NCBI GenBank assembly: GCA_029907355.1 | Contig: JARYLZ010000021.1 | Coordinates: 1 to 40,026 of the forward strand | Length of the DNA stretch: 40,026 nt | Source of the DNA: Bacteroidota bacterium | GTDB taxonomy: Bacteria > Bacteroidota > Ignavibacteria > SZUA-365 | Reading direction: 5' to 3' | Part shown: positions 7,215-17,799 of the stretch, one piece after another | How the letters are laid out: each line of letters opens with the position of its first letter | How positions within the stretch are numbered: the stretch's first letter is position 1 | Translations under genes and position numbers: made by a program | Notes under the pieces: model-generated | What the model was told of the DNA's origin: nothing | The model's input: the letters and a program-made list of their open reading frames with translations, nothing else | Databases searched by the model: none

Positions 7215-7287
7215 ACCGGACAAAGACGGCACACGGATTCTCCCTGCGCGGGGAGGGCGAAAAAACCCGGAGGGGGAGAAGCGCGTG

Positions 7288-9099
7288 ATGAAAGCGAGAC
7301 GGGATTCTGCGGGGTGTGCACGCGGGACCCTTCCGTGCGACGCGCGGCACATCCCCCGCAGTGTGCGGAGGAGAGCGTTTCCCCCCAGCTCCGCGAGCAG
7401 GCGTATCCTGCGGATATCCGCCATCGGATTCGTGCTCCTCTTGTTCCCCGCGCTGCTGACGGCGCAACAACAGGATTGGCGACAGTTCAGCGACGAGGCA
7501 TTCATCGCGTATCTCCGATCCGTCCGCGAGGGGCGTGTCGTACAGGGTGTACAAGGCATCGCTGTGCATGCGCCGTGCCGCTTCGATCTCACGCTGGAAA
7601 CCGCCCGCCGGCTTTCCCTCATTTCCCCCGCCCTCAAGCAAGATCTCGAGAGCCTTCTCCGGCCTCTCCGTACCCAGACGGATATCGTCAGCGCGAGCGG
7701 GAAATTCATCGTTCATTTCGACACGACAGGCTCGAACACGCCCGCCCTCCTCGACGCCGGAGGCAACAGGATCCCCGGGACCGCTCATGCGTACGCGACC
7801 GCTCTCGCCGTCGCGCTCGACAGTGCGTACGAGATGGAAGTGGTGCGTGCGGGCTACCTCCCGCCGCCGTTCGAGACGGGGCGGAACACGTACGCCGTCT
7901 ACATTCGGGAAATGGTGAGCGATTACGGGTGGACGGTCCCCGTCGTGCAGATCCCCTCGACAACCGTCCAGCCGCTCTACACGACGTACATGGAAATCGA
8001 CAACGATTTCGCGGGGAAGTATTACACGAAGGGCCTCGATGGGGCGAGGGCGACGGTGGCACACGAATTCCACCACATGATCCAGTTGGGCAGATACGGG
8101 GCCTGGTACTCGGACCGATGGGTCCACGAGATGTCCTCGACCTATTACGAGGACTACGTTTTCGATCGCATCAACGATTACTACCAGTACCTCCCGGATT
8201 TCTTCGCGCACACGGAACGCCCCCTCTACGCGTGGGGCGAGTGGGGGTATCCCCTCATCGTTCTGCCGAAAATGCTCGAGAAGCGGTTCCCAAGCGGCGT
8301 GCTCCGCGGGATGTGGGAGGGTATGCAGCGATATGAGCCCGTGACCGCGCTCGACAACGCCTTACGGAACGCATCGCCCCCGAGCGATCTCACCGCGGAG
8401 ATGTGCATCTTTGCACGGTGGAACTACGCGACGGGGTTCCGCTTCGCCGACGCGGCGCCGGAGGATCGCTACGACGAGGGGGCCGTTTACCCCCTCGTGA
8501 GCTTCGCCTCCACCATTGAGCTCGCGGGCGACACCGCCGCCTTCGGAATGTATGTCCCGCCCCTGGGGACCGTCTTCGTCCGGGCGTTCACCGGTGCGGA
8601 TACGGTCGCCTTTTCCGTGACGAATATCGACGTCGAAGCGGCGAAACAGAGGTCCGCCTCGCCGGCGGAGTTTCAGCTCACGGTGCGAAAAGGCCCGGGT
8701 GGCGATGAGTTCACGCCGATCGGGAACGAATGGTTCTACCGCTTCAAAACGTTTTCCCCGGGCAATCTCTACCTGACCGTCTTCGCGAAAGGCCGAGTCC
8801 CGGACATCATGGCGCTGGTATACCCCAACCCGTACGACCCGCAACGGGACGGGCTGATCCGTTTTTCCATCCCGTCGGATATTGCCGCCGTAACCGGTGA
8901 ACTCGCGGTGTACTCGGTCTCCATGGACCTCGTCGACCGCACGACGGTGAACGTGCGGAGCGATGCGCTTTTCGGGAGATACATGCCGTGGGACGGCACG
9001 GTCTCCGGCGGGAGGCCCTTGGGGAGCGGGGTGTACATCTATTTCATCCGTATCGCGGGGAGAACCCTGTCCGGCAAGTTCGCCGTCGTCCGCCGGTGA
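7288..9099 (+). CDS. Secreted zinc metalloprotease (MXAN_6640-like) with sorting-type C-terminus
   Basis: The protein is about 603 residues. A long, arginine-rich N-region precedes a hydrophobic core (about residues 44-58) and a likely cleavage after L-L-T-A, so a later start is possible. ATG 7288 is preceded by GTG 7285 and a purine-rich GGAGGGGGAG. The zincin motif H259-E-F-H-H263 is clear, with E281 in W-V-H-E-M-S-S as the probable third metal ligand. This arrangement matches the MXAN_6640 family of putative metalloproteases. The last ~95 residues begin Y-P-N-P-Y-D-P and end S-G-K-F-A-V-V-R-R, a FlgD/type A sorting-like Ig domain used by the type IX secretion system. It probably acts at the cell surface or outside; its substrate is unknown. 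Confidence 0.8.
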   Translation: MKARRDSAGCARGTLPCDARHIPRSVRRRAFPPSSASRRILRISAIGFVLLLFPALLTAQQQDWRQFSDEAFIAYLRSVREGRVVQGVQGIAVHAPCRFDLTLETARRLSLISPALKQDLESLLRPLRTQTDIVSASGKFIVHFDTTGSNTPALLDAGGNRIPGTAHAYATALAVALDSAYEMEVVRAGYLPPPFETGRNTYAVYIREMVSDYGWTVPVVQIPSTTVQPLYTTYMEIDNDFAGKYYTKGLDGARATVAHEFHHMIQLGRYGAWYSDRWVHEMSSTYYEDYVFDRINDYYQYLPDFFAHTERPLYAWGEWGYPLIVLPKMLEKRFPSGVLRGMWEGMQRYEPVTALDNALRNASPPSDLTAEMCIFARWNYATGFRFADAAPEDRYDEGAVYPLVSFASTIELAGDTAAFGMYVPPLGTVFVRAFTGADTVAFSVTNIDVEAAKQRSASPAEFQLTVRKGPGGDEFTPIGNEWFYRFKTFSPGNLYLTVFAKGRVPDIMALVYPNPYDPQRDGLIRFSIPSDIAAVTGELAVYSVSMDLVDRTTVNVRSDALFGRYMPWDGTVSGGRPLGSGVYIYFIRIAGRTLSGKFAVVRR

Positions 9100-9103
9100 C
9101 GCC

Positions 9104-9718
9104 GTGCGCATCGTCGCCTCGAATCTCTCCCGAACGTTCGGCCGCATGGAGGTGTTCCGCGGCGTTTCGTTCGCAGCCGGCAAAGGCATGGTGCTCGGCA
9201 TCACCGGTCGTAACGGTTCCGGAAAAACGACGCTGTTGAAAATCGCAGCGGGACTTCTGGGTCCCACGACCGGCACCATCTCCTGGTCGGTGGGCAGCAC
9301 CGCGCTGGAACCCCGGCATGTGTACCGTCACATCGGTTTCGCCGCCCCCTACCTCGCCCTGTACGACGACATGACGGTCGAAGAGAATCTGCGTTTTTTC
9401 GCTGCCATGCGCGGCCTGCGCCTCGAGTGGAATCGTATTGCCTCGTTCCTCGATTCCGTCGGCCTCACGGCGGGACGGGAAGATCCTCTCCGCGCCTTCT
9501 CGTCGGGGATGAAACAGCGGGTGCGCCTTCTCTTCGCTCTGCTCCACGACCCGCCCGCTCTGCTCCTCGACGAGCCGGGGACAAATCTCGACGAAGAGGG
9601 CCTCGACATCGTGCGCGGGATCGTCCGTTCGAGGCGTTCGATCGGACCCGTTCTCATCGCGACGAACGACCATGCGGATATCGAACTGTGTGACGGGGTC
9701 ATCCGCCTGTCCGATTGA
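9104..9718 (+). CDS. ccmA: Haem exporter ATP-binding protein CcmA
   Basis: This is a single ABC ATPase domain of 204 residues, the usual CcmA size. The Walker A motif is G35-R-N-G-S-G-K41-T-T, the signature loop is F-S-S-G-M-K-Q-R and the Walker B is A-L-L-L-D-E-P-G. The F-S-S-G-M-K-Q-R form is common in CcmA. CcmA powers the CcmAB(CD) machine that releases holo-CcmE in cytochrome c maturation System I; it is a cytoplasmic subunit at the inner membrane. The GTG at 9104, four bases after the metalloprotease stop, is the first in-frame start that fits. The next ccm gene is 3 kb downstream, beyond a sensor kinase. Taken alone it could be any small ABC-2-type ATPase; the ccmBCDEF run makes CcmA the best call. 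Confidence 0.85.
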   Translation: MRIVASNLSRTFGRMEVFRGVSFAAGKGMVLGITGRNGSGKTTLLKIAAGLLGPTTGTISWSVGSTALEPRHVYRHIGFAAPYLALYDDMTVEENLRFFAAMRGLRLEWNRIASFLDSVGLTAGREDPLRAFSSGMKQRVRLLFALLHDPPALLLDEPGTNLDEEGLDIVRGIVRSRRSIGPVLIATNDHADIELCDGVIRLSD

Positions 9719-9748: not shown

Positions 9749-9777
9749 TTGTCTCCTTGGGCAGGGCCTGCTAGTTT
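9749..9777 (+). promoter_or_regulatory. Promoter for hybrid sensor kinase
   Basis: TTGTCT (9749-9754), a 17-base spacer and TAGTTT (9772-9777, continuing CG) form a good TTG/TAnnTTT pair, 143 bases before the kinase ATG. It lies just after the ccmA stop, so the kinase, and perhaps ccmB onward, can be transcribed separately from ccmA. The leader from about 9785 to 9919 has no gene. Confidence 0.5.
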
Positions 9778-9919
9778 CGTTCTCACATCTTCCCTATTGG
9801 ACGATCGGCCGGGGCTCATCGCGTCACTTTCTTCATGGGGGAGGACCTGTCGGTGTTTCCCGGTCGATGGGGAAAGGGAGTGGAGCAGTCCTATTTTAAG
9901 AGAGAATGAGCAGCGGGCG

Positions 9920-12586
9920 ATGAAAGCACATGGGATGATTCAGGTCGCAGAATCCTTGGGGGATATGGTCTATCGATACCGTCTCCCCGGCGGGGAAATG
10001 GAATACGTGAGCCGCTCTGCGTGGGAGCGGTATCGTCCGGGCGAGGAACCGCCCGTGAACGCGAGGGATTTCCGAAGGCGTTTCATCCACGACGACAGCC
10101 CGGGCGACCCGGCGGGAGTCATCGAAGAACATGAGCGCGAGAGGAAAAGCGGGTGTGTCGATTACCTCGCTTCACTCGCCGGAGGGGATGTACGCTGGGT
10201 CGAGGACAGGTTCGCCGTCCTTCAAGACGACTGCGGCGATTTCGCTGTCGTCGTCGGAGCGATATCCGATATCCACGCGAGGAAAACGGCGGAGGAGGAA
10301 CCCCGGAACAGGGAGAGAATGCTTCGCATGGAATACGAGCAGTCCGCGGACGGATTCGTCCGTCTCGATCTCTCCCATCGCATGGTGGACACCAACCCCG
10401 CTTTCCGCCGGTTGGTCGGGTACGAGGCGGAAGAATTGGCAGGGATGACGCCCGAAAACATTACGCATCCCGACGACTGGCAAAGGGAACGCGAGATCGT
10501 TTGCGCGATGGTTCGGAGCGGTACCCCCTTTTGCACCCTTCAGAAACGCTATGTCAGGCGGGACGGTGCAACGGTGTGGGCGGAGTTGACGGTGACAGCG
10601 GTACGGGACGAGAGCGGCGCCCCTGCGGGTTTCATGGCCATCGTGCGCGATATAACCGAAAAACACCGGGCGGAGGAAGAAATCCGCTCCTGGCGGACAC
10701 TCTACGAACTCGTGACGGCGGCGTCCGGCCAGGTGGTCTACGATCTCGACATCCCATCGGGCAGTATCCGATGGGGGGGGAGCATCGAGGCTGTTCTCGG
10801 CTATGGCGGGACGGAACCGATGTGTGATTTCGCTTGCTGGGCGGAAGCGATACACCCCTCCGACAGAGATCGCGCGCTCGCGGGGTTCGAACGGTGCCGC
10901 CGGACGCTCCAACCGTACGAGGAGGAGTTCCGATTCCGCCGTGCCGACGGCGGGTATGCGTGGATACTCACGCGGGGGTTTTTCCTCCCCGGCGAAAGTG
11001 GGACCGCCGAGCGCATGGTCGGCATGATGATCGACATCGAGAGGAGTGTCAACGCCGAGAACGCCCAGCGGGAAAACGAGCGGAAGTACCGGACGCTCTT
11101 CGAGGTCTCCCCGTCGGGGATCCTCGTGGAAAACGCGGCGGGTACGATCGTCGACGTCAATGCCGCCTTCTGCCGCTCGTGCGGGTACCGACGCGAGGAA
11201 CTCGTCGGCAAACCCATCGAGTTCCTCGTGCCGGAAGAACACCTCACCGCGCTCCGCCTCCACCGGGCGGACGTTCTCAAAGGGAAAACCGTCGCGCACG
11301 ACATCGAATGCCGGAGGAAGGACGGCGGGAAATGCTGGCTGGCATTCCACGAGATCGCCCTTCCCGGACCCGACGGCGAAGCCGGTATCCTCGTCGTGGC
11401 GGACGACATCACGGCGCGGAGGGAACAGGAGCGCAAGATGGCGGAGGCGAAGGAGAACGCCGAGCGCTCCGAGAAACTCAAGGATGTCTTCATCGCGAAC
11501 GTGTCCCACGAGATCCGCACGCCGCTCAACGTGCTCGTCGGGTTCGTCGATCTCATCGGGGAGATCTACCGCGACATGATCGCACCGGAACACGCGGAAC
11601 TGTTCCGGACCATCGACCGCTCCGGGAAACGCCTGCTCCGGACCATCGAACATCTCCTCAACATTTCGAGCATCCAGGCGGGGACGTTCCAGGCCAGGTA
11701 CGAAACCCTCGACCTGGCCGAAGCCATCGCCCAGGTCGCCGCGGACATGAGGCCGTTCGCGCACGCCAAAGGTCTCTCCCTCGAGACATCCTACGCGGGC
11801 CGGAAAATCTACGGTGTGCTCGACCGTTACGCGTTCGAACAAGCGCTCATCAACCTGGTGGACAACGCGATCAAGTTCACGCCCGCAGGGTACGTCCGCA
11901 TATCTCTCACGGTCGAGGATGAATGGGCTCGAATCGATATCGTCGACAGCGGGATTGGTATTTCAGACGAGTATGCTCCATATATTTGGGAGAAATTCTC
12001 CCAGGAATCGGGCGGGACAGCGCGCCCCTTCGAAGGTCTGGGACTCGGTATGGCATTGACGAAGCATTACGTGGAGCTCAATCGCGGTATGATCTCTTTA
12101 TCCAGCACGAAAGGCGGCGGGACCACGGTCACCATGTTTTTCCCGCTCGATGAATACGCGGGCGATCATTTCGAGGCCGGACCGAAGCCGTCGCACGGCG
12201 TCTCTTCCGAAGCTTCCCGAAAGAGGCGGGTTCTCGTCGTCGAAGACGACCCTCAGAGCCAGCAATACATGAAGATCCTTCTCGGGAAGGATTACCTCGT
12301 GGATATCGCCCCGACGGCAGGCGCCGTTCTCGAGATTCTCGGCAAGACGCCGGTGGACATCATCCTCATGGACATCTCGCTTCACGGCGAGATCGACGGC
12401 CTGCAATTGACGCGCATCATCAGGCAGAAACCCGGGTGCGAGCGCATTCCCATCATCGCCGTGACAGCGCATGCCTTTCCCTCGGACCGCCAGAGGAGCC
12501 TCGAGGCCGGATGTACGGAATACATCTCGAAACCGTTCCAGCGCGATCAGCTCATGAGGCTCATCGCCGGTCTGACGGGGGAATGA
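9920..12586 (+). CDS. Hybrid PAS sensor histidine kinase with C-terminal receiver
   Basis: The protein is 888 residues and has no transmembrane segment, so it is probably cytoplasmic. Four PAS-like units occupy about residues 10-115, 130-250, 260-380 and 390-505. They are followed by HisKA with H530 in V-S-H-E-I-R-T-P-L-N and an HATPase with N649 in L-V-D-N-A-I-K-F-T-P, then G-I-G-I and G-L-G-L-G-M-A. A receiver domain has acidic residues V-V-E-D-D and phospho-acceptor D818 (L-M-D-I-S-L). Phosphate would pass from H530 to D818 and perhaps on to another partner; no DNA-binding output is fused. The ATG at 9920 is the best start, though its ribosome-binding site is weak. It sits between ccmA and ccmB, an unusual place. 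The sensed ligand cannot be read from the sequence. Confidence 0.93.
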   Translation: MKAHGMIQVAESLGDMVYRYRLPGGEMEYVSRSAWERYRPGEEPPVNARDFRRRFIHDDSPGDPAGVIEEHERERKSGCVDYLASLAGGDVRWVEDRFAVLQDDCGDFAVVVGAISDIHARKTAEEEPRNRERMLRMEYEQSADGFVRLDLSHRMVDTNPAFRRLVGYEAEELAGMTPENITHPDDWQREREIVCAMVRSGTPFCTLQKRYVRRDGATVWAELTVTAVRDESGAPAGFMAIVRDITEKHRAEEEIRSWRTLYELVTAASGQVVYDLDIPSGSIRWGGSIEAVLGYGGTEPMCDFACWAEAIHPSDRDRALAGFERCRRTLQPYEEEFRFRRADGGYAWILTRGFFLPGESGTAERMVGMMIDIERSVNAENAQRENERKYRTLFEVSPSGILVENAAGTIVDVNAAFCRSCGYRREELVGKPIEFLVPEEHLTALRLHRADVLKGKTVAHDIECRRKDGGKCWLAFHEIALPGPDGEAGILVVADDITARREQERKMAEAKENAERSEKLKDVFIANVSHEIRTPLNVLVGFVDLIGEIYRDMIAPEHAELFRTIDRSGKRLLRTIEHLLNISSIQAGTFQARYETLDLAEAIAQVAADMRPFAHAKGLSLETSYAGRKIYGVLDRYAFEQALINLVDNAIKFTPAGYVRISLTVEDEWARIDIVDSGIGISDEYAPYIWEKFSQESGGTARPFEGLGLGMALTKHYVELNRGMISLSSTKGGGTTVTMFFPLDEYAGDHFEAGPKPSHGVSSEASRKRRVLVVEDDPQSQQYMKILLGKDYLVDIAPTAGAVLEILGKTPVDIILMDISLHGEIDGLQLTRIIRQKPGCERIPIIAVTAHAFPSDRQRSLEAGCTEYISKPFQRDQLMRLIAGLTGE

Positions 12587-12722
12587 GCGCCCGTCCACGA
12601 TCCGCGAGAACGCGGCCCACGGTGGCATGGTCGACCGCGGCGATCATACGGGTACGCGAGGGGACCTCATGCCCCGAACCGTGCTTAGCCTCTTCCCTCT
12701 TCGCGATGGGAAGCGGAGAATC

Positions 12723-13391
12723 ATGACGATCCATCCCGCTCTTGCTTTGCTCGCCAAGGATTTCCGGGGGGAGTGGAGAACCCGCTATGCCGTCAACACC
12801 CTCCTGATGTTCATCGTCGTGACCCTCTCGGTCGTCGTTTTCGCCTTGGCGGGGGAAACGTTGACGTCGGGTGTGCAGGCGGGCCTGCTATGGGTCGTCC
12901 TTTTCTTCAGTGCGATGAACGGCATGTCCCGCTCGTTCCTTTCCGAAGAGGAGCGGGGTACCACGCTCACCCTCCGACTCCTCGCCGACCCGTCCGCCAT
13001 CTACCTCGGCAAACTCTTGTTCAACCTGGTGCTCGCCCTCCTGCTCAACGTGTTCATCGTGTTGCTCTTCCTCGTATTCCTCGAGGGTTTTCTCATCCGC
13101 CAGCCTGGGTTGTTCTTGGCGGTGATCCTGGGCGGGGGGGCGGGTGTCGCTGCAGCGACCACCGTCATCGCTGCCATGATCGCGCGCGCAGGCAGCAAGG
13201 GTCCTCTCTTCCCCGTTCTCTCCTTCCCCGTTCTCCTCCCCCTGCTGATGTCCGGTATCTCGGCCACGAAGATCGCGATGGAGGAAACGGAATGGACCCT
13301 CGCGCTCCCGGAACTGGGTGTGCTGGCGTCGTATATCGCCGTCGTCGTTGCCGCATCGTTCTTTCTGTTCGATTTCGTTTGGAAAGATTGA
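12723..13391 (+). CDS. ccmB: Haem exporter permease CcmB
   Basis: The 222-residue integral membrane protein has about six helices and matches CcmB in length and pattern. N-terminal L-L-A-K-D-F-R-G-E-W-R-T-R is the typical cytoplasmic start, followed by the conserved S-F-L-S-E-E-E-R-G-T-T-L-T-L-R-L-L loop near residue 60 and G-K-L-L-F-N. The partner CcmA supplies ATP. Start at ATG 12723 is set by CGGAGA upstream; the frame is open further upstream but without family similarity. The gene is separated from the kinase by 136 bases and from ccmC by 20, so ccmB and ccmC are co-transcribed. Confidence 0.9.
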   Translation: MTIHPALALLAKDFRGEWRTRYAVNTLLMFIVVTLSVVVFALAGETLTSGVQAGLLWVVLFFSAMNGMSRSFLSEEERGTTLTLRLLADPSAIYLGKLLFNLVLALLLNVFIVLLFLVFLEGFLIRQPGLFLAVILGGGAGVAAATTVIAAMIARAGSKGPLFPVLSFPVLLPLLMSGISATKIAMEETEWTLALPELGVLASYIAVVVAASFFLFDFVWKD

Positions 13392-13411: not shown

Positions 13412-14353
13412 ATGTGGTGGAAAACCCTTCTCTTCACGTGGATCGCGGTGTTCAGCGCGATGGCCCTCGTCGTGCCTGTCGCAGGGACTTTCGATGCGGT
13501 CCGCGCCAGAGGATGCGGCGGTGCCCCGTATCCCGTGCGTGCGACGATTCCCGATCCGCGCGCGGGAGTCCATGTGGGGAACGGGATCGCCGTACCCGCC
13601 GTCGACCGAAACGGGAATCGTGCGATGCTCGTTTTCCCCGCGCAACCGGACGGTCTGGCGGATGGGCGCACGTACGTGGTCCGCGTATGGGCCGACTCCG
13701 CTTCCAGGCTGTTCCACGTCGCATCCGTCGTTTCGATCGACCCGTTATGGACTTTCCCTTACATCGCCGGTCTCGGGGAGCGTGCACGGATCATTTTTTT
13801 CCACGTACCCACCGCATGGCTCAGCGTCATCGCGTTCCTCGTCTCCCTGTGGTATGGGGTATCGTACCTTCGGAGAAGGCGCGGAGAAGACGATGCGCTT
13901 TCCGCCGCCTCGGCCGGTCTCGGGCTGTTGTTCTGCCTGCTCGCGACGGCGACCGGTTCGCTCTGGGCGAAATTCAATTGGGGATCCTTCTGGAACTGGG
14001 ACCCACGGGAGACCTCGATCTTCGTTCTCTTGCTCGTGTATGGTGCCTATTTCGCCCTTCGTTCCGCCGTGGAGGACGCCGGGAAACGCGCCGTTCTCTC
14101 GGCCGTATACGGAATCCTCGCTTTCGTGAGCGTCCCATTCTTTATTTTCATCGTCCCGCGCGTGCTACCCGGTTTGCACCCCGGTTCGGCGGACGATACG
14201 GGAAGCGGACCGATTCTCGGCGGTGGGGGCATAGACATGGGGATGCGCGTCGTGATGTACGCGCTCCTCGTGGGTTTCACCGGGCTCTTCTCCTGGATGC
14301 TTCGCCTCGCCGACCGTGTCCACCGCCTCGAAGCCGAGAGAGGACACGATTGA
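13412..14353 (+). CDS. ccmC: Haem handling protein CcmC (CcsA/CcmC family)
   Basis: The 313-residue membrane protein carries the tryptophan-rich haem-binding motif N-W190-G-S-F-W-N-W-D197-P-R-E, and conserved histidines flank it, such as I-I-F-F-H-V-P-T-A-W. CcmC presents haem to CcmE at the outer face of the inner membrane. It is longer than the ~240 residues of E. coli CcmC because of a ~90-residue extension: one N-terminal helix plus a soluble segment with R-A-T-I-P-D-P-R-A-G. ATG 13412 is used here; an in-frame GTG at 13400 is an alternative. It follows ccmB closely and precedes ccmD. The extension resembles a small extracytoplasmic beta domain, possibly CcmE-like, which would be a notable fusion. 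Confidence 0.88.
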   Translation: MWWKTLLFTWIAVFSAMALVVPVAGTFDAVRARGCGGAPYPVRATIPDPRAGVHVGNGIAVPAVDRNGNRAMLVFPAQPDGLADGRTYVVRVWADSASRLFHVASVVSIDPLWTFPYIAGLGERARIIFFHVPTAWLSVIAFLVSLWYGVSYLRRRRGEDDALSAASAGLGLLFCLLATATGSLWAKFNWGSFWNWDPRETSIFVLLLVYGAYFALRSAVEDAGKRAVLSAVYGILAFVSVPFFIFIVPRVLPGLHPGSADDTGSGPILGGGGIDMGMRVVMYALLVGFTGLFSWMLRLADRVHRLEAERGHD

Positions 14354-14494: not shown

Positions 14495-14623
14495 ATGTAC
14501 GAATTTCTCGCAGAACACTCGGAATACGTCGTGCTGGCCGTCGCGCTGATCGTGTGGGCTGGGGTGTTCGCATACCTCGTCCGCATCGACCGCCGCGTGC
14601 GAAAGCTTGAACGCAAACCGTGA
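14495..14623 (+). CDS. ccmD: CcmD family small membrane protein
   Basis: A 42-residue product starting at ATG 14495 (M-Y-E-F-L) has one membrane helix (about residues 10-28), then the positively charged tail R-I-D-R-R-V-R-K-L-E-R. The single helix plus R/K-rich tail, and the place between ccmC and ccmE, are those of CcmD, which helps release haem-loaded CcmE from CcmC. Families this short carry little sequence signal, so context is decisive. A TATCAT at 14480-14485 precedes it, but it is too close to the ATG to be convincing as a promoter. Confidence 0.78.
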   Translation: MYEFLAEHSEYVVLAVALIVWAGVFAYLVRIDRRVRKLERKP

Positions 14624-14633
14624 GGGGCGCGTG

Positions 14634-15044
14634 ATGGCGAAGCGCAGGTATCTCATCGGGGGACTGGTCATCGTGGTGTCCCTCGTGATCGGCGGGTACG
14701 CGTTCCTTCGGGGGAGCGTGAAGTATGCGACGTTCGGCGAGGCGGAACGGTCGGGGAAACGCGTCCAGGTCGCCGGCACGTGGATCCGCGAGCGCGGAAG
14801 CGTGTACGACCCGCGGACAAACACATTCGCGTTCTCCATGCGCGACGGGGAGAACCGAGAGGCCGAAATCGTGCTCCATGGGCCGAAACCCAACAACTTC
14901 GATCTTGCGGAGAACCTCGTCGTGAAAGGGCGTTTCGAGAACGGGACATTCCATGCAACGCAGGTTCTCACGAAATGCCCTTCGAAGTACACCGGCGAAC
15001 CCTCGCCGGGGCACCCCGAGGGTATCCCGAAGGAGAACCCTTGA
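14634..15044 (+). CDS. ccmE: Cytochrome c maturation haem chaperone CcmE, CxxxY variant
   Basis: The 136-residue protein has one N-terminal membrane anchor (about residues 5-24) and a periplasmic OB-fold domain, as in CcmE. The key site reads L-T-K-C115-P-S-K-Y119. Classical CcmE of proteobacteria binds haem covalently through histidine in HxxxY; here a cysteine takes that place. A CxxxY CcmE is the hallmark of the variant System I described in archaea and some bacteria that lack CcmH. ATG 14634 follows GAGGGG by about six bases; GTG 14631 is also possible. It begins 10 bases after ccmD. Downstream residues are a short proline-rich tail. The family call is firm. Confidence 0.92.
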   Translation: MAKRRYLIGGLVIVVSLVIGGYAFLRGSVKYATFGEAERSGKRVQVAGTWIRERGSVYDPRTNTFAFSMRDGENREAEIVLHGPKPNNFDLAENLVVKGRFENGTFHATQVLTKCPSKYTGEPSPGHPEGIPKENP

Positions 15045-15093: not shown

Positions 15094-17799
15094 ATGACGT
15101 TCGACCCGATCGGTTTCCTCGGAAGGCTCGCCGTGGGTGCTGGGTTCGCGGCGGCCGTCACCGCGTCGATCCTTTCCTTCCTCGCTCTTCGGCGCCCTCG
15201 ACTCGCTGCGATAGGGTGGAGGGCGTTCCAAGCGGCCGCCGTCACGGTCTGCATCGCCTCGGCCGCGCTGTTGATGCTCATTCTCGATCACCGGTTCGAG
15301 TACGAGTACATCCGGGCATACAGTTCGCGCGATCTCCCGTTGGGCCTTCTCCTTTCGACCTTCTACGCCGGGCAGGAAGGGAGCATCCTGCTTTGGGCGC
15401 TGGCGGTCGGGCTCATCGGCATCGGATTCCTCACGTCCGTGCGAAAGCAGGGGAACGACGCGGAAGTAACGACCGGTTACGCAGCGGTTCTCGCGTTTCT
15501 CCTCCTCCTCCTCCTCGTCAAGAGCCCTTTCGCCGCTCCCGATGTCCCGCTCGTTCCCCGTGACGGCCGCGGGTTGAATCCGCTCCTGCGGAATTTCTGG
15601 ATGCAGGTCCACCCGCCGGTTCTCTTCCTCGGCTTCGCGGCCATGACACCGCCGTTCGCCCTCGCCCTGGGCGCCCTCGCCCGGAGGCGATACGGGGGAT
15701 GGGTGATCTCCGCACTGCCCTGGGTGGCGGGCGGCGCCGCCATGCTGGGGCTGGGGATCGTACTCGGCGGGTTTTGGGCATACGAAACCCTTGGTTGGGG
15801 CGGATGGTGGGGGTGGGACCCCGTCGAGAACTCCTCGCTCATACCCTGGCTCGTTTCGGTCTCCGCCGTTCACACCATGCTCGTTCAGAAACGGACGGGC
15901 GGCCTGGTGATGACGAATTTCACGCTCGTCATCCTGGCTTTCCTCGCCGTGCTCTACTCCACGTTCCTGACGCGGAGCGGAGTCCTCGGCGAGGCGTCGG
16001 TACACGCGTTCGTCGACCCCGGCCGCTTCACCTTCACGCTCCTCCTCCTGTCCCTGTTCGTATTCACGGATACGGGGATTCTGCTTCTCCTTTCACGGTT
16101 CACGAACCTCGGGACGCGCGTCCTGCAGCGGCGGCCCGGTCTGCAGGGCGTTGCCGTCCTCTCCGCCCTCGTCGTCGCGCCGAGCATCCCGCTGTTCGCC
16201 GCCGTATCCGGGGATCTCGTCCCCGTCTTCCGGGTTGCCATCCAAAAGTCCCCGGCGGTGTGGGGCGTTTTCCTCTACCCGCTCCTCGGCCTTTCGTCCG
16301 CCTTGAACGCGACGGTGCCCTTGGCGCTGCCGGCCTTCATCCTCGAGCTGGGTGTCCTCGTCTACACGTTCACTGCCCGGCTCCACCCGGGTGTATCGAT
16401 ACGAAGTTTCCGCTTCCTTTCCCGGGAGACGTTCCTCGGTTTCGGCGCGCTCACCCTCGGGATCTTCGCGGCAGCCGTCCTGTTCGGGACTTCTCTGCCC
16501 GTAATCCCGCATCCCGTGATCGAGTGGATCAACGATTTCCTGAGTCGCACGGGTTCTCTGGCAGCGGTCGGGAATACCGTCGAGCCTACATTCTACGAGA
16601 CATTGGGTCTTCCGCTGGCAATTCTCATGATGGCGCTGACCGCCACTGCGGTCGCCTTGAAATGGACCGAAGACACATGGGCGGGCGTGGCGAGAAAACT
16701 CACCATCCCGCTCATGACGGCAGCGTTGTGTTCCACCGTCCTCGCTTTCGCCGGTGTCCGTGAGCCGTGGATGCTGGCCCTGGGGTTCTTCGCGATCCTC
16801 GCGACGGCAGTGAACGCCCGGGCCGGCTGGCGCGTGCTCAGGGGCGAACCTCGATATGTGGGGGCTTACCTTTCGCATATCGGGGTCGGGGCGCTCCTCC
16901 TCGGCGTCATCGGCTCCGGCTTCCTTGCGCGCAGCCGAGTGCTGGAACTCCCGGAAGGCGGGCGGGTCGAAGCGCTCGGACACGTCTTCACCTACGCGGG
17001 ATACGAGCCGATCGAGGGCGGCACGAAGTTCCGTTTCAAGGTCGCGGTAGCGGAGACCGGCGGACGGGAGGCCGATACCGTCGGACCCGTGATGTACGAA
17101 ACGTGGTACGGAGGCGCGCGGCAGGTCATGCGCATCCCCGGTATCGAACGGTACTGGCGGAAGGACGTCTACATCGAACCGCACGGTCTCACCGAACCGG
17201 CACCATCGGGGTGGCGGGCAGTGCGTTTCGAGCGTGGTGTCGACGTTCCGTTCGGCGGGTACACCATCCGGTTTCACGACATCGAGTCCGGGGGTGCTGT
17301 CGTATCCGACCCATTCCGGCTCGCTGTCGTGTTCCAGGTAACGCGGAGCGGCAAGGCGCCCCGCTTTCTCACGGCGAGAAAGTTCCGCGGCCCGGACGGC
17401 GTCGTCGACGAACCCGCGCGGACGGGAGAAGGCGACCTCGAAATCGTCCTCGACGGCGCATCCTGGGACAGGGAAAAAAAGACCGTCGAGTCCGTTTCCG
17501 CTCGCATCCGCAACCCGAGGGCAACCCCGAACCGATCGGGCCGCGACACCCTGATCGTTCAGGTCTCCGTCAAGCCGTTCATGACGCTGGTCTGGGCAGG
17601 CGTTGCCCTCGTGATCGCGGGGTTCGTGACAGCGGGTTTTCGTCGGGCGAAAGACGCTGTGCGGCTCGCGCGGCGAAGAATCGAGCCTGTGGAGCACGAA
17701 GTCGAGCGGGATGTCCCCCAGCTTGTCGATGTTCCGGCCGGTTCGGGACCGTTGGAGGGAGAGGGAAACGGCTGCCCCGATACCGCGCGGGCGGAGTGA
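15094..17799 (+). CDS. ccmF: Cytochrome c haem lyase subunit CcmF
   Basis: The 901-residue polytopic membrane protein is larger than E. coli CcmF (~650 residues). The haem-handling W-rich motif W235-G-G-W-W-G-W-D242-P-V-E-N is followed by L-I-P-W-L, and conserved histidines flank it. Upstream is the standard Y-A-G-Q-E-G-S-I-L-L-W-A segment. The extra length is a C-terminal extracytoplasmic domain (about residues 590-820) closed by a final helix and a charged tail. CcmF attaches haem from CcmE to apocytochrome c. In variant systems without CcmH, an extended CcmF might take over part of its role, but that is speculation. ATG 15094 has GGAG upstream. No ccmG/H/I follows; the next gene is sdhC after 346 bases. 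Confidence 0.92.
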   Translation: MTFDPIGFLGRLAVGAGFAAAVTASILSFLALRRPRLAAIGWRAFQAAAVTVCIASAALLMLILDHRFEYEYIRAYSSRDLPLGLLLSTFYAGQEGSILLWALAVGLIGIGFLTSVRKQGNDAEVTTGYAAVLAFLLLLLLVKSPFAAPDVPLVPRDGRGLNPLLRNFWMQVHPPVLFLGFAAMTPPFALALGALARRRYGGWVISALPWVAGGAAMLGLGIVLGGFWAYETLGWGGWWGWDPVENSSLIPWLVSVSAVHTMLVQKRTGGLVMTNFTLVILAFLAVLYSTFLTRSGVLGEASVHAFVDPGRFTFTLLLLSLFVFTDTGILLLLSRFTNLGTRVLQRRPGLQGVAVLSALVVAPSIPLFAAVSGDLVPVFRVAIQKSPAVWGVFLYPLLGLSSALNATVPLALPAFILELGVLVYTFTARLHPGVSIRSFRFLSRETFLGFGALTLGIFAAAVLFGTSLPVIPHPVIEWINDFLSRTGSLAAVGNTVEPTFYETLGLPLAILMMALTATAVALKWTEDTWAGVARKLTIPLMTAALCSTVLAFAGVREPWMLALGFFAILATAVNARAGWRVLRGEPRYVGAYLSHIGVGALLLGVIGSGFLARSRVLELPEGGRVEALGHVFTYAGYEPIEGGTKFRFKVAVAETGGREADTVGPVMYETWYGGARQVMRIPGIERYWRKDVYIEPHGLTEPAPSGWRAVRFERGVDVPFGGYTIRFHDIESGGAVVSDPFRLAVVFQVTRSGKAPRFLTARKFRGPDGVVDEPARTGEGDLEIVLDGASWDREKKTVESVSARIRNPRATPNRSGRDTLIVQVSVKPFMTLVWAGVALVIAGFVTAGFRRAKDAVRLARRRIEPVEHEVERDVPQLVDVPAGSGPLEGEGNGCPDTARAE

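Follow-up and report, generated by a model that had tools for sequence, protein, structure and literature searches.

A System I* cytochrome c maturation locus with a CcmE-like insert in CcmC and a second periplasmic domain in CcmF in a Bacteroidota bacterium

The cytochrome c maturation (ccm) locus described here, carried on a 40,026-nt stretch of contig JARYLZ010000021.1 from a bacterium of the class Ignavibacteria (hereafter, the window), is almost certainly of the System I* type, because its CcmE has a cysteine at the haem-ligand position and no CcmH was found in the genome. A cysteine CcmE without CcmH is of an already known kind and ordinary within the phylum. The locus further encodes an OB-type insert in CcmC and a second periplasmic domain in CcmF, and the sequences make it likely that this is a System I* locus in which these two modules are candidate compensators.

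A ccm locus with a cysteine-type CcmE

Within the window, the genes run in the order ccmA, hybrid histidine kinase, ccmB, ccmC, ccmD, ccmE and ccmF (Table 1), with 49 bp separating ccmE from ccmF and a b558-type succinate dehydrogenase cluster following ccmF. The ccmABCDEF set of System I* is complete, and the noted lack of ccmG, ccmH and ccmI in the window was borne out by the gene content. In 37 relatives, the gap between ccmA and ccmB measures at most 438 bp, and the kinase does not lie between them. A gene for an MXAN_6640-family metalloprotease neighbours ccmA in 37 of the 40 class loci that have ccmA; in three loci (L063, L076, L088), ccmA has been relocated and the metalloprotease gene has moved with it as a pair.

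Table 1 Features of the ccm locus and their positions in the window
Feature	Position	Strand	Remarks
MXAN_6640-family putative secreted zinc metalloprotease	7285-9099	+	directly upstream of ccmA
ccmA (ABC ATPase)	9101-9718	+	ORF opens at 8963; start probably about 9101
PAS-rich hybrid histidine kinase	9749-12586	+	945 aa; between ccmA and ccmB
ccmB	12723-13391	+	ORF opens at 12627; start probably 12723
ccmC	13412-14353	+	313 aa; WWD-family haem-handling protein
CcmE-like OB domain in first periplasmic loop of CcmC (residues 26-113)	13487-13750	+	C115-equivalent is Asp
ccmD	14495-14623	+	42 aa; CcmD_alt family
ccmE	14634-15044	+	136 aa; N-terminal TM anchor and OB-type haem chaperone domain; PF03100; ORF reading: ATG at 14634, end at 15044
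Haem-attachment motif C115-P-S-K-Y119 of CcmE	14976-14990	+	from alignment; class alignment n=31
ccmF	15094-17799	+	901 aa; cytochrome c haem lyase subunit
Own-clade insert of CcmF (residues 340-440)	16111-16413	+	~100 aa; largely helical; membrane region
Second periplasmic beta domain of CcmF (residues about 708-828)	17215-17577	+	

CcmE was recognised by its Pfam profile (PF03100; E=2.4e-14), and its OB domain closes with LTK-C115-P-S-K-Y119. We aligned it with histidine and cysteine forms of the protein by phmmer against PDB chains. In the alignment with E. coli CcmE (8ce8), 'VLTKCPSKYTG' of the window protein faces 'VLAKHDENYTP', which places C115 over H130 and Y119 over Y134; in that with Desulfovibrio vulgaris CcmE (2kct), the motif faces 'MTKCPLEH', and C127 is the residue under C115 (pairwise E-values are weak, at 0.011 and 0.26, respectively; residue numbering of H130 and C127 follows PMC10457321 and PMC3884852). 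Given the Pfam match and the invariance of the C115-P-S-K-Y119 columns in 31 of 31 aligned class CcmE sequences, C115 occupies the haem-ligand position despite these weak pairwise E-values. CxxxY in place of HxxxY, as originally noted, thus holds, and we infer that CcmE would bind haem covalently via C115. In the archaeal form of the system, CcmE no longer binds haem once it carries a C120A exchange (Gupta et al. 2022, PMC9084895).

Partners and absences across the genome

The source assembly spans 3.25 Mb and is 98.9% complete. A profile search returned a single CcmE copy. Neither CcmH nor CcmI was detected when the whole genome was searched: PF03918, which was positive in four control genomes, gave no match at E≤0.001, and TIGR03142 (CcmI) gave none. 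The combination of HxxxY CcmE and CcmH that marks canonical System I is therefore not what this genome encodes; with one CcmE of the cysteine form, C115 on the ligand column and no ccmH found elsewhere, the original assignment to a variant System I with CxxxY CcmE and lacking CcmH is supported. The claimed absence of ccmG stands for the operon and the window, but not as a genome-wide statement, as genes outside the ccm operon specify DsbD and a minimum of two thioredoxins of the TlpA/ResA-like type with WCxPC. Redoxin-family matches in the genome number ten and include TlpA-like proteins with WCGPC and WCKPC.

That the ccm locus is unused and cytochromes are instead matured by System II (CcsBA/ResBC) is extremely improbable, and we came across nothing in favour of it. 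PF01578 matched only CcmC and CcmF, with no CcsA or other sign of System II in that search of the genome, and the frames of the operon are open and conserved. Cytochrome substrates comprise a CBB3-family cytochrome c with two CXXCH motifs, a protein with 11 such motifs and another with 9. Monohaem PF00034 cytochromes, also considered as substrates, were discarded, as none were found in the genome.

System I* is ordinary in the phylum

Allen 2006 and Goddard 2010 described System I*, with its cysteine CcmE, and Stevens et al. 2011 (PMC3601427) reviewed it. In that review, CPSKY is the commonest System I* motif (25 of 36 genomes with a cysteine CcmE). CcmH is missing from about two-thirds of genomes with a cysteine CcmE and present in about one-third of such bacteria (PMC3601427), and therefore the cysteine does not imply loss of CcmH; Metabacillus and Cytobacillus, for instance, have a cysteine CcmE together with CcmH.

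Every CcmE that we read from the phylum carries CPSKY: 30 of 30, 81 of 81 (our own included) and, from other classes, 16 of 16. The three sets overlap in part; those of 30 and 16 were collected via the Pfam profile, whereas the 80 loci behind the 81 were collected with a pattern that itself contains CPSKY, which makes that count non-independent evidence.

Profile searches of 297 phylum genomes detected CcmE in 193 and a CcmH match in seven. On inspection, these seven weak matches were rejected as plain CcmH. One is a histidine kinase; the other six (L032, L033, L034, L035, L036, L038) are an Ignavibacteria-type protein with an N-terminal zinc ribbon, one TM helix and two tandem CcmH-like domains bearing C-x-C-x-x-C motifs, which by its sequence is a divergent relative of CcmH in a phylum with no other sign of CcmH. 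This raises the question of whether a CcmH-like protein of such divergence fills the role elsewhere in our genome while escaping recognition. Six class genomes do encode the zinc-ribbon protein, PF03918 gives fragmentary matches to it with E-values as low as 8e-9, and its own profile finds E. coli CcmH (E=0.002). That profile, however, had no match in the window or near ccm genes in 80 relatives, PF03918 is silent in our genome at the threshold given above, and the System I* of D. desulfuricans is active in E. coli without CcmH (PMC3601427). We consider a hidden CcmH quite unlikely and retain the reading that the system operates without one.

A CcmE-like domain inserted in CcmC

CcmC has the features of its family, namely the WWD motif (WGSFWNWD, at about 13979-14002) and two periplasmic histidine ligands, H131 and H256, the aligned counterparts of H60 and H184 in E. 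coli. It is, however, 313 aa long versus 245 in E. coli. The extension that had been predicted at its N terminus proved to be a real extra domain, but one placed differently: an AlphaFold2 model (whole model: mean pLDDT 84, pTM 0.80) puts it after TM1, in the first periplasmic loop, as an insert of ~88 aa between TM1 and the helix that starts near the haem ligand H131 (E. coli H60). The insert is built from six strands (residues 40-45, 53-55, 58-64, 70-75, 87-95 and 100-109). The extra domains of CcmC and CcmF can be described more specifically than had been claimed, as a CcmE-like OB insert in the former and a second periplasmic beta domain in the latter.

Twenty-four of 65 class CcmC proteins were scored as long; one of these (L105) has a mis-assigned start, leaving 23, and the remaining class proteins measure 211-261 aa, one of them being truncated. 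A profile built from the 24 sequences was matched over its full length—counting matches that start at or before model position 35—in 27 of 297 genomes, all of this class; among the matches listed, genomes outside the 27 showed the CcmC core only. In a tree of the CcmC core, one branch parts the proteins with the insert from those without (support 95/86, 98% of bootstraps), which indicates one origin of the insert.

Comparing the inserts with CcmE by hhalign returned a score of 35.7 (probability 91%, E 1.1e-6), far above 200 column-shuffled CcmE profiles (mean 9.9, sd 1.8, maximum 16.0). The signal is present in two sub-clades separately, scoring 33.7 in our own clade and 24.6 in the Kapabacteria type (shuffle maxima 16.0 and 14.3), and a separate profile comparison gave E=1.5e-5. 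The alignment is colinear across 78 columns and reaches CPS of CPSKY, and the proline after the ligand position is invariant in 22 of 22 inserts. The residue before this proline is Asp, Tyr, Asn, Glu, Ala, Ser or Lys (n=22); neither a haem cysteine nor a histidine occupies it in any of the 22, and the insert is for this reason best called CcmE-like rather than a haem-carrying CcmE.

Could the insert instead be a beta or OB-like domain of other descent that was gained independently and has no more than its fold in common with CcmE? Pairwise identity between insert and CcmE is low. Foldseek matched the CcmC model to the CcmC structures 8ce1 and 7f02 and, over insert-sized stretches, to generic OB folds (RPA14/32, aminoacyl-tRNA synthetases, RsgA, S12, SSB), with no CcmE structure among the 50 matches listed; the Pfam CcmE profile, run against the 24 CcmC proteins, matched only one, at E=0.22. 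With Foldseek listing no CcmE and Pfam nearly blind to the insert, its CcmE ancestry rests on the profile comparison. Against mere convergence stand the colinear alignment into CPSKY with its invariant proline, the scores far exceeding the shuffles in both sub-clades, and the presence of CcmE itself two genes downstream of ccmC in the same operon. We therefore judge convergence to be unlikely, and homology of the insert to CcmE probable on these profile scores.

As to function, the OB domain of CcmC may dock or orient CcmE, a role that we consider possible yet short of probable. In the E. coli cryo-EM structure, the CcmE anchor touches CcmB, not CcmC (PMC10457321).

A tailless CcmE in Kapabacteria-type relatives

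Thirteen Kapabacteria-type loci (L057, L060, L064, L069, L071, L079, L081, L083, L099, L109, L110, L115, L122) contain a second CcmE-family gene of ~115-130 aa near ccmE, usually between ccmE and ccmF. Its product pairs a TM anchor with an OB domain whose sequence stops at '...PYFHATQVY*', directly ahead of the point at which CcmE continues with LTKCPSKY. We refer to it as tailless CcmE. It matches no Pfam family, but hhalign against CcmE scored 61.6 (probability 97%) versus at most 18.3 for shuffles. Another 14 loci, some from organisms already counted, contain the gene as well; the window does not.

Neither ccmA nor ccmB was located in the surrounding DNA, which reached up to about 8 kb from ccmC, in 13 of the 23 loci with an OB-type CcmC (L057, L060, L064, L071, L079, L081, L084, L099, L101, L107, L110, L115, L119), among which the contig of L115 leaves only about 1.1 kb of sequence upstream of ccmC. 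The contig of L079 is labelled Bradyrhizobiaceae and carries a Kapabacteria-type ccm locus; it probably stems from a mislabelled or contaminated MAG.

A second periplasmic domain in CcmF

CcmF measures 901 aa, as compared to 647 in E. coli. Its periplasmic region (residues 613-828) was modelled as two successive beta domains, of which E. coli CcmF aligns to one. The predicted extra domain is therefore real, whereas its placement at the C terminus has to be revised: it enlarges the periplasmic region that precedes the last TM helix. Two readings of this region were discarded. The CcmF periplasmic domain is not CcmE-like (hhalign 12.6, within the range of shuffles; this comparison also served as a negative control for that of the CcmC insert), and an apparent repeat between the two domains arose artificially, from fragments that overlapped.

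The second domain occurs in the aligned CcmF proteins of the class and in those of other classes (746-943 aa). Seven systems taken from other phyla for comparison lack it (E. coli, P. aeruginosa, Phaeobacter, Pseudonocardia, Metabacillus, Cytobacillus and Rhizobium; CcmF of 647-697 aa). A CcmH or CcmH-type gene adjoins CcmF in six of the seven, all but Rhizobium, for which the stretch read shows CcmI and CcmE near CcmF and lists no CcmH. Since the two Bacillota, Metabacillus and Cytobacillus, combine a CPSKY CcmE with CcmH and a short CcmF, the second domain in this sample tracks the absence of CcmH and not the cysteine—a correlation drawn from few lineages, with phylum as a confounder.

Indeed, all long CcmF proteins in this sample come from one phylum and all short ones from others, and the enlarged domain may well be a lineage trait of Bacteroidota without any link to CcmH loss. 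The short CcmF of the two Bacillota with cysteine CcmE and CcmH argues that the domain is not simply tied to the cysteine form. We regard the lineage-trait reading as a serious contender, if just short of an even chance, and the proposal that the second domain presents the apocytochrome in place of CcmH/I as more tentative.

Proposed maturation route

CcmC loads haem onto CcmE, and CcmF attaches it to CXXCH. In the route that we propose, CcmABCD would carry haem through the membrane or out of it, loading CcmE via C115, with Y119 as a likely iron ligand. CcmF would then join haem to the CXXCH motifs of the apocytochrome without CcmH/CcmI, and the cysteines of CXXCH are probably held in the reduced state by DsbD and the TlpA-like thioredoxins. 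Lying beside H131, the CcmC OB domain could be an integral docking partner for apo-CcmE that sets it in place over the haem pocket of CcmC, and the second CcmF domain might take over the apocytochrome-presenting role of CcmH/I. A more general scheme, in which the CcmE fold was copied, within one lineage of Bacteroidota-group bacteria, into haem-ligand-free partner modules (the CcmC loop and the free-standing, membrane-anchored tailless CcmE of Kapabacteria) that dock and hand over haem-CcmE, with the CcmF domain replacing CcmH, is one we would advance only with reserve.

The extra domains bear on how System I* makes cytochromes c without CcmH and on how a stable cysteine-haem thioether is formed and broken. 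System I* functions in E. coli without CcmG/H, and the 2011 review stated that bioinformatics had found no compensating features in other Ccm proteins (PMC3601427). The CcmC OB domain, the tailless CcmE and the second CcmF domain now provide concrete, deletable candidates for such compensation and, if the proposal is right, would be the compensating features that earlier surveys missed. All three appear to be unreported: in a search of chiefly non-subscription literature, we found no report on Kapabacteria Ccm, Bacteroidetes CcmF or CcmC-CcmE fusions.

Comparison with known systems

The CcmC insert and CcmE (PF03100) align over the OB domain up to CP of CPSKY. The insert lacks a separate TM anchor, the haem cysteine or histidine and the tyrosine, and is embedded in a multi-helix membrane protein.

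Among described systems, the System I* of Desulfovibrio (PMC3601427) shares the cysteine CcmE, the absence of CcmH and the ccmABCDEF set including CcmD. It differs in that CcmI enhances maturation there, whereas no CcmI was found here, and in that the CcmC OB insert and the second CcmF beta domain are not described for it in the literature consulted. The streamlined Ccm of Methanosarcina acetivorans (PMC9084895) likewise has a CXXXY CcmE and lacks CcmH/I, but it has no CcmD and a split CcmF1/F2, whereas CcmD is present here and CcmF is one long protein. With E. coli System I, our locus has CcmA, B, C, D, E and F, the WWD motif and the conserved histidine ligands of CcmC in common; unlike ours, the E. 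coli system combines an HxxxY CcmE with CcmG, CcmH, a 245-aa CcmC without the insert and a 647-aa CcmF.
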